Below are positions 40,343 through 46,717 of a stretch of DNA of 64,000 bases, piece by piece (within the stretch, counting starts at the first letter, position 1; every line of letters begins with the position of its first letter). The notes beneath the pieces were generated by a model, which saw only the letters and a list, made by a program, of their open reading frames with translations, ran no database searches and was not told the DNA's origin. The DNA comes from Rhizobium indicum (GTDB taxonomy: Bacteria > Pseudomonadota > Alphaproteobacteria > Rhizobiales > Rhizobiaceae). The position numbers and the translations under genes were made by a program. Location: assembly GCF_005862305.2 (NCBI RefSeq), contig NZ_CP054021.1, forward strand, positions 248,001 through 312,000. Reading direction: 5' to 3'.

Positions 40343-40523
40343 GACTTGGGTTCGCGGGCGATAGAACGGGCAGATGCCTTTGGTCGATAGGTTGCGAGCG
40401 GTTCGTCACCTGCCCTTGCCTCGTCACTGACGAACCACTGATCTCAAATATTCTCAACCACAGATACAATCTGCGCAGAGACGACGTTGACGACGTGTAG
40501 ATTTGGAGCTAGCTCTATCGCCC

Positions 40524-40580
40524 ATGAAAATCACAATGGTTCTCGTAGTGGTGATATCGCGCATGGGCAGGACGGTCTGA
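40524..40580 (+). CDS. Branched-chain amino acid leader peptide of an attenuator
   Basis: An 18-codon frame reads MKITMVLVVVISRMGRTV and stops. Seven of its residues are Val, Leu or Ile, with the run V-L-V-V-V-I in the middle. It lies 102 bases before the acetolactate-synthase-like gene and is followed by a long hairpin and a terminator, the classical layout of a leader peptide that senses charged tRNA for branched-chain amino acids. A Shine-Dalgarno sequence is not obvious. A TTGACG at 40487 suggests that transcription may start close to the ATG, as known for the leaderless trpL of Sinorhizobium meliloti. Confidence 0.75.
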   Translation: MKITMVLVVVISRMGRTV

Positions 40581-40636
40581 TCGTTCGGCAATAGCCACCC
40601 ATGCGCCGAAAACAGGTCCCTGACGGGGCCTTTTTT
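40559..40636 (+). terminator. Transcription attenuator (hairpin 1:2 and terminator)
   Basis: GCGCATGGG (40559-40567), inside the end of the leader peptide frame, pairs perfectly with CCCATGCGC (40598-40606). A nested TTCGGC/GCCGAA pairing overlaps it. Just after stands a terminator: AGGTCCC (40614-40620), TGAC loop, GGGGCCT (40625-40631), then six T. The 1:2 hairpin would be disturbed by a ribosome stalled on the leader, which would allow another structure and read-through into the downstream gene. Confidence 0.7.
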
Positions 40637-40681
40637 CATGCCCCGTCGCACCCATCACTTCACTTACGACGGAACCCAGAT

Positions 40682-42388
40682 ATGACCGGCGAGAAAGCCA
40701 ACTTTTCCCTCAATACGCCTTCTGATCGTCTCATGAACGGAGGCGAGATCGTTCTGCAGGCGCTACGCGACAACGGTGTCGAACACATTTTCGGTTACCC
40801 CGGCGCCGCGGTGCTGCCGATCTATGACGAAATATTCCAACAAGAGGACATCAAACATTTCCTGGTGCGCCACGAGCAAGGCGCCGGACACGCAGCCGAA
40901 GGCTATGCCCGTTCGACGGGACGAGTTGGCGTCATGCTGGTGACATCGGGACCGGGCGTTACAAATGCGGTCACGGCGCTGCAGAATGCCCTTATGGACT
41001 CCGTTCCGATCGTCTGCCTCTCCGGTCAGGTGCCGACAAATCTGATCGGCACGGACGCTTTTCAGGAATGCGATACGGTCGGCATCACCCGCCCCTGCAC
41101 AAAGCACAATTTCCTGGTCAACCACATCGACGATCTGGCCAAAACGATTCATCTGGCTTTCCGGATTGCGGCGGCGGGTCGACCCGGCCCTGTTCTCGTC
41201 GACATGCCGAAGGACGTGCTCTTCGCCAGTGGGGCCTATGTCTCACCCGACCAGGTATCTCCGCTGCCGAGCTACCAGCCCGCGGTGCAAGGCGATCAGA
41301 ATGCGATCCGGGCGACTGTCGCATTGATGGCCGAAGCCCGACGACCCATCATCTATACAGGCGGCGGCGTCATCAATTCGGGACCGGAGGCGTCGCGATT
41401 GTTGCGCGAACTCGCCGACCTCACCGGCTTCCCGGTCACCTCCACGCTCATGGGTCTTGGAGCCTATCCGGCCACCGGACCGAGTTGGCTGCGAGTCGCC
41501 GGACAGGACGGCTCGCATGAAGCCAATACGGCAATTGGCGATTGCGACCTGATGATCGCCATCGGCGCGCGGTTTGACGATCTCCCAATCTCGCGCGTCC
41601 ATGAGTTTTCGCCTCAATCGAAGAAAATCCATATCGATATCGATGCCTCGTCGATCAACAAACGCGTTCCCGTCGATATCGGCATTCAAGGCGACGCCGC
41701 GCATGTGCTGGCGGATATGGTCCATGCCTGGCGGTCACTTTCCACCGCCCCCGACCAGAAGCGGTTGCGGGCGTGGTGGACACAGATCGACCTTTGGCGA
41801 GCCCATCATTCGTTTTCCTACGAGCGGCTGGACCATGCAATCATGCCGCAACATGCCTTGGAGCGCCTGCATGCGCTGACAAAGTCGCACGACCCCATCA
41901 TCGCCACGGAGATCGGTCAGCAGACGTGGGTGGCGCAGTTCTTCGGTTTTGACAGGCCAAATCGCTGGATTATCTCAGGGCGATTGGGAACTATGGGCTT
42001 CGGTCTTCCTGCCGCGCTGGGGGCGCAGCTCGCAAATCCCGGCCGCCTTGTCATCGACATTGCCGGCGACGCGTCGGTGCAGACGACGATGAAAGAGCTG
42101 TCGACGGCGATACAGCATCAAGCGCCGATCAAGATCTTCATCTTGAGCGATGAGCATCCGGGCATGGCGCGAGAATGGGGTCAGGTACCGGATGACAATG
42201 GTCGATCGCGCGCTTATTCGGCCTCGCTGCCCGATTTCACCAAGCTCGCGGAAGCCTATGGCGCCGTCGGCCTTCGCTGCGAGAGCCCGAGCGAACTCGA
42301 TGCCAGGATCGAGGAGATGATCAACGTGGACCGGCCGGTGCTCCTTCACTGCCGAGTTGCAAGGCTCGCCGACACCCTTCGGCAGTAA
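40682..42388 (+). CDS. Acetolactate-synthase-like ThDP enzyme (large subunit type)
   Basis: The 568-residue protein has the three-domain ThDP-enzyme layout. The N-terminal catalytic Glu lies in FLVRHEQGAGHAAEGYARST; the central domain includes GAYPATGPSWLRVAGQDGSH; the C-terminal cofactor motif starts GDASVQTTMKELSTAIQ. Acetolactate synthases make the first common precursor of valine and isoleucine. The usual NN pair that closes the Mg-ThDP motif reads SD here (FILSDEHPGMAREWGQ), and no small regulatory subunit gene follows. ATG 40682 lies after the attenuator terminator; an earlier frame from 40601 would pass through it. The leader links the gene to branched-chain amino acid supply. Confidence 0.85.
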   Translation: MTGEKANFSLNTPSDRLMNGGEIVLQALRDNGVEHIFGYPGAAVLPIYDEIFQQEDIKHFLVRHEQGAGHAAEGYARSTGRVGVMLVTSGPGVTNAVTALQNALMDSVPIVCLSGQVPTNLIGTDAFQECDTVGITRPCTKHNFLVNHIDDLAKTIHLAFRIAAAGRPGPVLVDMPKDVLFASGAYVSPDQVSPLPSYQPAVQGDQNAIRATVALMAEARRPIIYTGGGVINSGPEASRLLRELADLTGFPVTSTLMGLGAYPATGPSWLRVAGQDGSHEANTAIGDCDLMIAIGARFDDLPISRVHEFSPQSKKIHIDIDASSINKRVPVDIGIQGDAAHVLADMVHAWRSLSTAPDQKRLRAWWTQIDLWRAHHSFSYERLDHAIMPQHALERLHALTKSHDPIIATEIGQQTWVAQFFGFDRPNRWIISGRLGTMGFGLPAALGAQLANPGRLVIDIAGDASVQTTMKELSTAIQHQAPIKIFILSDEHPGMAREWGQVPDDNGRSRAYSASLPDFTKLAEAYGAVGLRCESPSELDARIEEMINVDRPVLLHCRVARLADTLRQ

Positions 42389-43465: not shown

Positions 43466-46400
43466 ATGCGTCCGATGGAGTGCAGCGGCTGCGGGTTCGA
43501 TGTTCAGAGCGGTTTTGCTTTCTGTCCGCGATGCGGCGCAAGGCAACCGATATCGTGCGCCGCCTGCGGCTATCCTTGTCAGCCCGATTTTGCCTTCTGC
43601 CCCCAATGTGGCGCGCCGATATCCGGTAAAGTCCAACCCGCAACGAAGCCGAAGATTGAGGCGCTAGCTCAATCGGAGGGCGATGCCGACCGGCGGCCGG
43701 TGACCGTGCTCTTTGCCGATCTCTGCGGCTTCACGACCCTGAGCGAGCAGATCGATCCTGAAGTCATGCGGGTGCTGCAGAACGAATTGTTCGAAGAGAT
43801 GACCCAGGCGGTCGAAGCCTATGGCGGCTTCGTCGACAAGTTCGTCGGCGATGCACTGCTGGCGCTGTTCGGCGCGCCGGTCGCCCATGAGGACGATCCG
43901 GTCCGGGCGCTTGGTGCTGCACTCGATATGATCGGTCGGGCGACGCAGGTCGGCGAGCGCTGGCACGCCCGCGCCGGCGTGCCGCTGCGTCTGCATATCG
44001 GCATCAATAGCGGCCCTGTCGTTACCGGCGGCTTTGGTGCGGTCAGTACAAAATCCTATTCCGTGACCGGCGACACGGTAAACACCGCCCAACGCCTGCA
44101 ATCCATGGCCGGCGAAAACGATATCCTTGTCGGGCCGCTGACCTATCGCCTCACCCGCCATGCCTTTGCCTTCGACAGTCTCGGCGCGCAGACGTTGCGC
44201 GGCAAAAGCGGAAACGTCCTTGTCCATCGGCTGACAGGGCTGTCGGAAGCGCCGCATACGGCGCGCGGGCTTGAAAGTTTCGGCCTTCGGGCGCCGATGA
44301 TCGGACGGGATACGGAGTTGTCGGGGTTGCTGACATGCCTCGACCTTGCCTGCGGCGGCGCAGCGCAGCTTGTCCGGCTGATCGGCGAAGCCGGTATCGG
44401 CAAGTCGCGGCTGGTCAACGAATTCGTCGCAACCGCCGGCAATGCCGCCCGTTTCCAGGGCCTCGCCATCCGCAAAGCGACCTGCTCTCCGCTCGGCGAA
44501 CAATCCTATGGTACGCTCGGCGCGGTCGTACGCATCGCCTACGGCATCGGCGAGCGGGACGATCTCGACAGGGCGCGGCAATTGCTGGCAACGGGGTTCC
44601 GCGCGCTCGATCTGGCGCAGGAGGAGGTCGAGGGGCTTCTGCCGCTCTTTCTGCATGTCCTGGGCCTCGGCGATCCCGATGGCGCGTTGCGGCACATCGA
44701 GCCAGAGCAGTTGCGGCGGCAGATCTTCTATGGCATCCGCACCGTCTTTGAGCGGCGGCTGGCGCAAGGTCCCCTGCTGCTTGTCATCGAGGATCTGCAC
44801 TGGGCCGACGCCGCCTCGCTGGAAGTGCTTCGCTTCATGATGGACCGGCTGGAGCGCAGCCGGTTGATGCTGCTGGCGATCTACCGGCCGACATCGCAGA
44901 CCGACCCACTGGACTCCAATCGTGTCAGTGTCACCGTGCAGCGTCTTGCCCCACTCTTTGCCGCCGACGGGCAGAAGCTGCTTGCTGCGTTTTTTGGCGT
45001 GGATCATGGCAAGTTGCCGGTAACGATGCGCAAGCGCATCCTCGACCGCGCTGGCGGCAATCCGCTTTTCATCGAAGAAATCCTTCGGGCACTGATCGAC
45101 ATGGGCACGTTGCACAATGACGGCCAACGCTGGCATGTCGCAGCAGAAGACACGGATGTCGATATCCCGGTGAACCTGCAAGCCCTGTTGCTTGCCCGCG
45201 TCGATCGTCTACCACAGGACATCAGACGGCTGGCGCAAGAGGCGGCGGTGGTCGGCCCGAAGTTCGATACCGCCCTGCTCCGCACTATCGCCACCGACCC
45301 GGCCGCCATCGATGCTGCATTGGATCATCTCTGCGATGCCAATATCATCGAGGAATTGCGCGGGCCCGATGCCGGCAGCTCGCCTGGCTATCGCTTCAGC
45401 CAAACGCTGATGCACGACGTCATCTACCACAATCTCCTGCTGCAACGGCGCATGGAGCTTCATCAACGGATCGGCCGGGTTCTGGAACGTCAATATGGCG
45501 TAGCGCCCGACCGGCCCGAGCATCTGGCGCAGCTCGGCCATCACTTCAGCCTGACCACTGAAAAGGCCAAGGGGGCCAGCTATCTGATGGCGGCGGGCGA
45601 TCTGGCGCGCAAAACCTACGCCAATGACGATGCGATGCGCCTCTACCGTCAGGCCCTTGCGGCCTTCGCAAACGAGGCGGAGGTTACACCAGAGCAACTC
45701 GCGCTTCTCGAGCGTCTTGCCGATCTCTGTGGCCCTGCCGGCCTCCGCGACGCCGCCGTAAACCATTATCAACGAGCGCTTGCGATTCACCGGACCAAAG
45801 ACAACCCTATTGCCGCAGCGCGGATATTGCGCAAGGTCGGCCGTTTGCATCTTGATGCAGGACGCCGCGATCAAGCGGAGACACATTTGGCCGAAGCCGA
45901 AGCGATAATCGCAACAATCGATGCGCCGGTCGAACGTGCACATGTCCTGCAGGAGCGCGGCCATCTGGCCTTCCGCATGGGGGATCAGGCCGCTGCCGCC
46001 GAGTGGGCGACGCAGGCATTGCAATGCCTGCAAACGCTGCCGATCGACGGGACGACCGAGACCGGACGGGAGACAGCGCGAGCGATGGCGGAGGCGCTGA
46101 ACACCAAGGGGGCGGCCTTTGCGCGGCTCGGGCGTCGCCGCGAGGCCGTGCAGGAAGTGGAGCGCAGCCTCTCGGTCGCTGAAAAAGCCGATCTGCAAAG
46201 TGCCGCCTGTCGCGCCTATTCCAATCTCGGCGTTCTCTACACGATTGTCGACCCGGCCAACGCCATCAAGATCTGCCGGCGCGGGCTGGAGCTTGCGACC
46301 CGTATCGGCGATCTCGGCTTCCAGGCGCGGCTTCTCGCCAACCTCGCCGTTGCCTGCTGCACCTTCACCGATCGCTGCGCCGCCGAGGGTGTACCGGCCG

Positions 46401-46717
46401 CGGAAAAAGCCGTCGAAATCGACCGGGCGCTCGATCAGCGCGACCATCTCTCCGTGCCGCTGATCGTGCTGGGCCAAATTCATCAATGCCACGGGCAGCC
46501 GAAGCTAGCCCGTAAGTATTACGAGGAAGCCCTTGAGGTCGCGAAGGAAATTGACGAGCCGCAACTGCTGTTTCCGTGCTATGATGGCTTGGCGACACTC
46601 AGCCTCGAGCATGACGACATGGACGAGGCAGAACGGTATTTCACGCTGGCACAGGATGTGTGCATCCGCCACAACCTCGATCCAGGCACGCTCGTCGTCC
46701 TGCCGTTTCTCGACTGA
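43466..46717 (+). CDS. Zinc ribbon - class III cyclase - AAA ATPase - TPR protein
   Basis: The 1083-residue protein starts with two zinc ribbons (CSGCG...FCPRCG and CAACG...FCPQCG, residues 6-48). A class III nucleotide cyclase follows (Asp85 in LFADLCGFTTL, Asp129 in KFVGDALLALFG, Asn206 and Arg210 in VNTAQRLQSM), then an AAA/STAND-like ATPase (Walker A GEAGIGKS at 307-314, Walker B LLLVIEDLHWADA) and about 350 residues of TPR repeats to the end. Such proteins couple nucleotide cyclase activity to ATP-driven assembly and protein binding. The combination is common in rhizobia, but the signal is unknown. ATG 43466 is in line with the zinc ribbon; the ribosome binding site is weak. No partner gene is adjacent. 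Confidence 0.88.
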   Translation: MRPMECSGCGFDVQSGFAFCPRCGARQPISCAACGYPCQPDFAFCPQCGAPISGKVQPATKPKIEALAQSEGDADRRPVTVLFADLCGFTTLSEQIDPEVMRVLQNELFEEMTQAVEAYGGFVDKFVGDALLALFGAPVAHEDDPVRALGAALDMIGRATQVGERWHARAGVPLRLHIGINSGPVVTGGFGAVSTKSYSVTGDTVNTAQRLQSMAGENDILVGPLTYRLTRHAFAFDSLGAQTLRGKSGNVLVHRLTGLSEAPHTARGLESFGLRAPMIGRDTELSGLLTCLDLACGGAAQLVRLIGEAGIGKSRLVNEFVATAGNAARFQGLAIRKATCSPLGEQSYGTLGAVVRIAYGIGERDDLDRARQLLATGFRALDLAQEEVEGLLPLFLHVLGLGDPDGALRHIEPEQLRRQIFYGIRTVFERRLAQGPLLLVIEDLHWADAASLEVLRFMMDRLERSRLMLLAIYRPTSQTDPLDSNRVSVTVQRLAPLFAADGQKLLAAFFGVDHGKLPVTMRKRILDRAGGNPLFIEEILRALIDMGTLHNDGQRWHVAAEDTDVDIPVNLQALLLARVDRLPQDIRRLAQEAAVVGPKFDTALLRTIATDPAAIDAALDHLCDANIIEELRGPDAGSSPGYRFSQTLMHDVIYHNLLLQRRMELHQRIGRVLERQYGVAPDRPEHLAQLGHHFSLTTEKAKGASYLMAAGDLARKTYANDDAMRLYRQALAAFANEAEVTPEQLALLERLADLCGPAGLRDAAVNHYQRALAIHRTKDNPIAAARILRKVGRLHLDAGRRDQAETHLAEAEAIIATIDAPVERAHVLQERGHLAFRMGDQAAAAEWATQALQCLQTLPIDGTTETGRETARAMAEALNTKGAAFARLGRRREAVQEVERSLSVAEKADLQSAACRAYSNLGVLYTIVDPANAIKICRRGLELATRIGDLGFQARLLANLAVACCTFTDRCAAEGVPAAEKAVEIDRALDQRDHLSVPLIVLGQIHQCHGQPKLARKYYEEALEVAKEIDEPQLLFPCYDGLATLSLEHDDMDEAERYFTLAQDVCIRHNLDPGTLVVLPFLD

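Follow-up and report, generated by a model that had tools for sequence, protein, structure and literature searches.

A probable second ilvIH-type leader-peptide attenuator in front of a diverged acetolactate synthase gene of Rhizobium indicum

Why should a gene for the large subunit of acetolactate synthase (ALS) lie apart from any small-subunit gene and yet carry in front of it a leader with a run of branched-chain codons? This question is raised by a locus in a 64,000-nucleotide stretch of Rhizobium indicum DNA, hereafter the window. The sequence-only reading of the locus had proposed classical tRNA-sensing attenuation of an orphan synthase-like gene beside a sugar importer. From the comparisons described below, window 40487-42388 very probably represents a diverged second copy of the ilvIH leader-peptide attenuator together with a diverged duplicate of ilvI, responding to starvation.

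Features of the leader and of the synthase gene in the window
Feature	Position	Strand	Remarks
TTGACG, probable -35 box	40487..40492	+	Spacing conserved in relatives' leaders
CTAGCT, candidate -10 box	40509..40514	+	Lined up by eye against CTATCA in the ilvI leader; spacer of 16 nt
Leader ORF MKITMVLVVVISRMGRTV	40524..40580	+	ATG at 40524, TGA at 40578-40580; six Val/Leu/Ile among the seven codons before Arg-Met-Gly
5' arm of 9-bp outer helix GCGCATGGG	40559..40567	+	Within the leader ORF; predicted fold
Inner stem-loop, 7 bp	40570..40586	+	Contains the stop codon; predicted fold, compensatory changes in relatives
Small inner stem-loop GGCAATAGCC, 3 bp	40587..40596	+	Predicted fold
3' arm of 9-bp outer helix CCCATGCGC	40598..40606	+	Predicted fold
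Intrinsic-terminator-like hairpin AGGTCCCTGACGGGGCC and T run	40614..40636	+	Predicted fold, conservation in relatives
ALS large-subunit paralog, type B, 568 aa	40682..42388	+	68% identity to the genome's IlvI

With a covariance model the leader was matched to the Rfam family RF02502 (Atu_C8) at window 40526-40647 (+), scoring 105.4 bits against a cutoff of 50 and covering model positions 1-122. The terminal helix of the family, which spans the terminator, is not kept in the window, 3 of its 4 pairs being non-standard; the other helices fit. A chance hairpin is ruled out by the Rfam score and by conservation. The Val/Leu/Ile run and the terminator preceding the synthase gene were both found as described earlier, the codon run being kept in the relatives' leaders. 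The perfect 9-bp hairpin of the sequence-only reading is a real helix; in the predicted fold, however, it encloses two inner stem-loops and so forms a more complex structure than a plain hairpin. The ALS start at 40601 in the ORF list falls inside the leader and was rejected; the ATG at 40682 (MTGE...) is common to the relatives' sequences compared.

RF02502 has exactly two matches in this genome and none in 14 control genomes. The other copy (120.1 bits) lies 5' of an intact ilvI followed by ilvH, and its leader is MKIATALIVVGKRMGRMV. The description of the window gene as an orphan holds in that ilvH is missing, but the gene is not an isolated case: its leader duplicates the ilvIH leader of the same genome and the pattern is genus-wide. 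The absence of a small subunit beside the window ALS was borne out, since the next ORFs are a ParE-like and a cyclase-domain gene and ilvH was found at the canonical locus. Immediately downstream, the ParE-toxin-like ORF (PF05016; 42598-42948, minus strand) lies between the ALS paralog and the large cyclase gene (43466-46717, plus strand), which encodes a 1083-aa protein with zinc-ribbon, guanylate-cyclase, AAA and TPR domains. The importer reported next to the locus is also present: it is an ABC system with a periplasmic binding protein and lies upstream, together with a regulator of the LacI family. Sugar genes accompany type B in genome G026. A tie to the sugar importer was rejected, because the pump, type A and type C genes that follow related leaders sit in other neighbourhoods.

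The leader was compared in other Rhizobium genomes. Its start codon, Val/Leu/Ile codons, stem, terminator and TTGAC box are conserved there. The homology, the kept codons and the constant spacing of the promoter box together give good support to a branched-chain leader-peptide attenuator. The mean number of Val/Leu/Ile codons 5' of the Arg-Met-Gly codons is 5.4 in 47 ilvI leaders, 6.1 in 14 type B leaders and 5.6 in 66 leaders that precede an efflux pump, with a minimum of 2 branched-chain codons in some pump leaders. In the five branched-chain codons of the 66 pump leaders the third position is by far the most variable, with 87 minority letters out of 330, against 23 at the first position and 18 at the second. 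The second letter is T in 312/330, and the last codon of the run is Val in all 66, as GTG or GTA. Two-sided changes in the inner stem amount to 42 cells over 6 pairs in 132 distinct leaders, a count made without a shuffle control. Covariation gives no evidence for the outer helix, which hardly changes from leader to leader.

In 143 of the 147 leaders that could be parsed, the TTGAC box precedes the Arg-Met-Gly codons by 71-75 nt, in agreement with the TTGACG noticed earlier upstream of the leader; the distance from TTGACG to the ATG is 37 nt in both the window leader and the genome's ilvI leader. The missing Shine-Dalgarno sequence also proved to be a general trait, such words occurring in 4/147 leaders (three of type B and one pump leader, the window copy not being among those listed). 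The parsed set leaves out seven ilvI leaders from other families (L076-L082), which fail the seed profile, and pump leader L153 is unparsed owing to a Gly to Asp change in the Arg-Met-Gly motif. Judged by homology, codon conservation and promoter spacing, the leader ORF is probably leaderless or nearly so. A comparable leader without a 5' untranslated stretch has been published for trpL of Sinorhizobium meliloti (PMC10117765).

Family membership, the conserved codons, the stem, the terminator, the promoter box and the duplication are properties of the sequence itself, and they suggest the following course of events. A leaderless transcript would start near the ATG at 40524. When charged Val, Leu and Ile tRNAs are plentiful, the ribosome would reach the stop codon and transcription would end at the terminator (40614-40636), the product being a short RNA like the sRNA Atu_C8 listed in Rfam. 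When these tRNAs are scarce, the ribosome would stall on the corresponding codons, the stop-codon stem would be disturbed and more transcripts would reach the ALS gene. As for the attenuation being classical, the leader codons and the terminator agree with the term, but neither single leaders folded under a 5' mask nor consensus folds of five leader classes revealed a conserved antiterminator. We therefore infer stalling and read-through from homology and from known attenuators. Masking of the 5' part, which mimics a stalled or a terminating ribosome, hardly altered the mean terminator probability: that of type B leaders went from 0.77 to 0.80 and 0.75, and that of ilvI leaders from 0.95 to 0.93 and 0.94. 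When the first 42 nt of the window copy are masked, 83% of the terminator 5' arm is paired with upstream sequence by the time the 3' arm is transcribed. The effect of masking on terminator pairing is local, is seen in single sequences only and is not conserved.

How far such leaders have spread was assessed over the family, in which RF02502 is matched once or more in 193 of 199 genomes. For the genus 148 genomes were compared, 30 with one leader, 116 with two and 2 with three; 120 extra copies are thus carried by 118 of them. Outside the genus two leaders were seen in just 4 of 195 genomes (G233, G318, G349 and G352). Behind the second leader lies a second ALS in G233 and G318 and a pump in G352; the second match of G349 (29.6 bits) was discarded as being under the cutoff. 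The next gene could be identified for 109 of the 120 extra leaders. It is an ALS paralog in 33 cases (15 of type B, 13 of type A and 5 of type C), a Bcr/CflA-like MFS protein in 75, of which 7 rest on coordinates rather than read sequence, and another MFS protein in 1. The 11 leaders not traced to a gene come from ten type C genomes and G139 (contig ends). At the chosen cutoffs an ALS paralog or a pump is present in 116 of the 118 extra-leader genomes, and in the remaining two, G081 and G085, an ALS paralog lies behind the extra leader. Neither gene was found in 26 of the 30 single-leader genomes. The others hold a type A paralog (G033), a partial pump (G067) or distant pump relatives (G098 and G116), with no leader in the stretches searched.

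This linkage bears on a further explanation, namely that the terminated RNA or the 18-aa peptide acts in trans in the manner of rnTrpL/peTrpL, the downstream gene being secondary. Rfam does list the family as an sRNA, and peTrpL is a precedent (PMC7298713). An RNA acting in trans would not, however, need to adjoin so few kinds of gene in 109/109 cases or to keep its pump in at least four neighbourhoods, and we regard this explanation as very unlikely.

The target genes may have been exchanged behind the leader within the genus. A tree built from 146 leaders separates the second copies from 45 of 47 ilvI leaders (SH-aLRT 94), the other two belonging to different genera and sitting on long branches; the tree is short and many of its forks are unresolved. 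Pump genes occupy at least four distinct neighbourhoods, and the flanking genes differ among types A, B and C. In G112, a pump leader (L137, G112:C6:131806-131926) is nested among type B ALS leaders (support 95). It is of type B including its promoter region, yet it is followed by an MFS pump and not by ALS. At the level of sequence, this is a swap of targets behind one leader.

The proteins behind the extra leaders were then compared with IlvI. The window ALS passes TIGR00118 (653.9 against 538.35 bits) and misses its closest family, PRK09107 (895.6 against 974). Ser-Asp replaces the NN motif that binds the cofactor, the C-terminal arm is lost and the protein ends about 33 residues early. These are traits of type B, in which Ser-Asp stands for the cofactor-binding Asn-Asn in 13/14 sequences and the arm is absent. 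Type A keeps the catalytic motifs, including the NN motif, and the C-terminal arm. In type C the stretch around yeast Trp586 is missing in 4/4. Each of the types A, B and C is monophyletic; B is the sister group of A (100/100), and the grouping of all three is weak (92/51). Outside the genus, both second synthases belong to genus g87: that of G233 (behind L128) is a 377-aa remnant, and that of G318 (behind L130) is full length with several positions of the inhibitor pocket changed.

The features kept in type A, the TIGR00118 score of the window protein and the leader codons would be expected of a spare biosynthetic isozyme that boosts branched-chain synthesis during starvation. The changed cofactor residues and missing arm of type B and the loss around Trp586 in type C argue against it, as does the absence of a dedicated small subunit, and the pumps behind the same leader would be left unexplained. 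A spare isozyme is therefore an unlikely answer.

Alternatively, leader and paralog could be functionless relics of an ilvI duplication. Median dN/dS climbs from 0.065 in ilvI to 0.123 in type A, 0.189 in type B and 0.292 in type C. Together with the lost cofactor residues, the C-terminal truncation and the three changes in the window copy at positions invariant in 44 relatives, this rise fits decay. Broken genes also occur: a type B frame in G085, the G233 remnant and, despite its leader, the pump of G012, which has an internal stop. Against decay, dN/dS within type B ranges from 0.123 to 0.282 over 91 pairs, well under 1; the reading frame is unbroken in 14 of the 15 type B genes; and the leader codons stay branched-chain through synonymous change. 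The selection acting on the paralogs is relaxed and far from neutral, and on the sequence comparisons the type found in the window is under purifying selection. We consider plain decay improbable.

The three changes of the window ALS lie within 41920-42000, at positions invariant in 13 type B, 14 type A and 17 IlvI sequences; one of them is Gly to Arg at yeast position 521. They perhaps represent further decay in this strain.

A tentative reading that covers both kinds of target is a portable protection triggered by starvation. The second leader would drive one of two targets, an efflux pump or an ALS whose inhibitor pocket is altered, and an inhibitor of branched-chain synthesis would thereby induce its own countermeasure through uncharged tRNA. 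This would add a purpose to the attenuator and would not replace it. Inhibitors of branched-chain synthesis act by depletion of these amino acids (PMC6843678), and a tRNA-sensing leader joined to a pump or an altered ALS thus fits a countermeasure. The protective reading is in keeping with the targets themselves, since all 109 identified next genes are ALS paralogs (33) or MFS proteins (76, of which 75 are Bcr/CflA-like), and with the G112 pump leader nested among ALS leaders. The two kinds of target are also nearly exclusive. Both occur in one genome of 148 (G104) against 22.6 expected from 44 and 76 of 148; the Fisher test on this exclusion ignores phylogeny.

For the ALS paralogs the protective reading turns on the inhibitor pocket. 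Yeast position 116, which we take to be an inhibitor-resistance position and the equivalent of rice G95, is Ala in 34/34 paralogs and Gly in 17/17 IlvI. It is one of seven positions that are invariant in IlvI and altered in all 34 paralogs, and Gln254Leu and Gln558Lys are as uniform among the 34 as Gly116Ala, which weakens the argument. G318 is altered in addition at 192, 354 and 586. For excess changes at ten listed sites the uncorrected p values were 0.175 for type A, 0.0086 for type B, 1.7e-5 for type C, 0.0027 for G318 and 0.083 for G233. The values for types B and C are confounded because their C-terminal part decays generally; those for type A and G233 are not significant, and a clean enrichment is seen only for the intact G318, a single sequence. 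The remaining listed sites are presumed resistance positions, and the numbering equivalences are likewise presumed. A literature search for AHAS resistance sites in yeast gave no result. Published support covers rice Gly95Ala, which gives resistance to bispyribac-sodium (PMC13170792), and Pro197, Asp376 and Trp574 as resistance sites in plants (PMC6504096).

The other target is the pump. The best NCBIfam match of one such protein, from G031, is to TIGR00710, Bcr/CflA efflux (183.2 bits against a cutoff of 200.9), and as the score is under the cutoff the pump is called Bcr/CflA-like. Of 24 leader-linked pumps, 21 carry in full the motif GxxxxPxxGPxxGG, presumably that of an antiporter; 2 have a shortened form of it and 1 lacks it. 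Median dN/dS of the pumps is 0.212 over 149 pairs.

In its full form the protective reading holds that the Rhizobium ilvIH attenuator has become a portable sensor of uncharged Val/Leu/Ile tRNA, through which natural ALS inhibitors or branched-chain analogues induce a paralog with an altered inhibitor pocket or an efflux pump of the proton-antiport type, the targets being exchanged in evolution; in the lineage of the window the paralog may since have taken on a non-catalytic role, for example that of a binding decoy. We hold this to be possible but doubtful, because the window's own paralog looks catalytically impaired.

Part of this picture is familiar. The ilvIH/ilvB leader peptide of alphaproteobacteria was reportedly described by Vitreschak in 2004. 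The ilvIH leader is a listed element in PMC2573895 and is mentioned in PMC1273637, Vitreschak 2004 being cited for it. The window shares with that leader homologous sequence and structure, leader codons, a terminator and a position upstream of an ALS large-subunit gene; it differs in being a second copy, in front of a diverged ALS without ilvH, and in having relatives followed by MFS pumps. With rnTrpL/peTrpL of S. meliloti it shares a rhizobial leader ORF at or near the RNA 5' end and a ribosome-dependent attenuator (PMC10117765 and PMC7298713); there the codons are for Trp, and the sequence is unrelated as far as is known. Ribosome-mediated attenuation of an auxiliary, resistant synthetase gene is the subject of a title in the reference list of PMC4787780. 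A duplicate, inhibitor-resistant target under an amino-acid leader is the logic proposed here, although enzyme, amino acid and phylum are different and function was tested there. In bmrB-bmrCD of Bacillus subtilis a multidrug transporter is under ribosome-mediated transcriptional attenuation, but it is an ABC transporter induced by ribosome-targeting antibiotics and has no branched-chain codon sensor (PMC4191407). Mobile attenuators are general according to Naville and Gautheret 2010, who describe a His leader common to hisS paralogs; theirs is another family, and the main text contains neither "rhizob" nor "ilv" (PMC2965389).

The open-licence literature yielded no report of this leader upstream of an ALS paralog or a pump. 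PMC3738593 makes no mention of ilvI, acetolactate or Atu2036, and no pairing of a leader peptide and MFS transporter with a branched-chain attenuator is described in the available part of the review found. The ilvIH leader and gene-hopping attenuators are thus already known, and what appears new, from sequence comparison, is the leader in front of ALS paralogs or pumps. If the protective reading is true, an attenuator of the classic amino-acid type now serves as an alarm that responds when the pathway is attacked chemically, and either of two outputs can be joined to it. Natural ALS inhibitors, so far undescribed, would be expected in soil and around roots, and a large set of Rhizobium MFS genes would gain a first function. 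The movement of an attenuator between genes would then be visible inside one genus, with 148 species comparable.

A further kind of captured gene was seen in G099, where the third leader (L151, G099:C79:32902-33020) precedes a different MFS protein (PF07690/PF05977).
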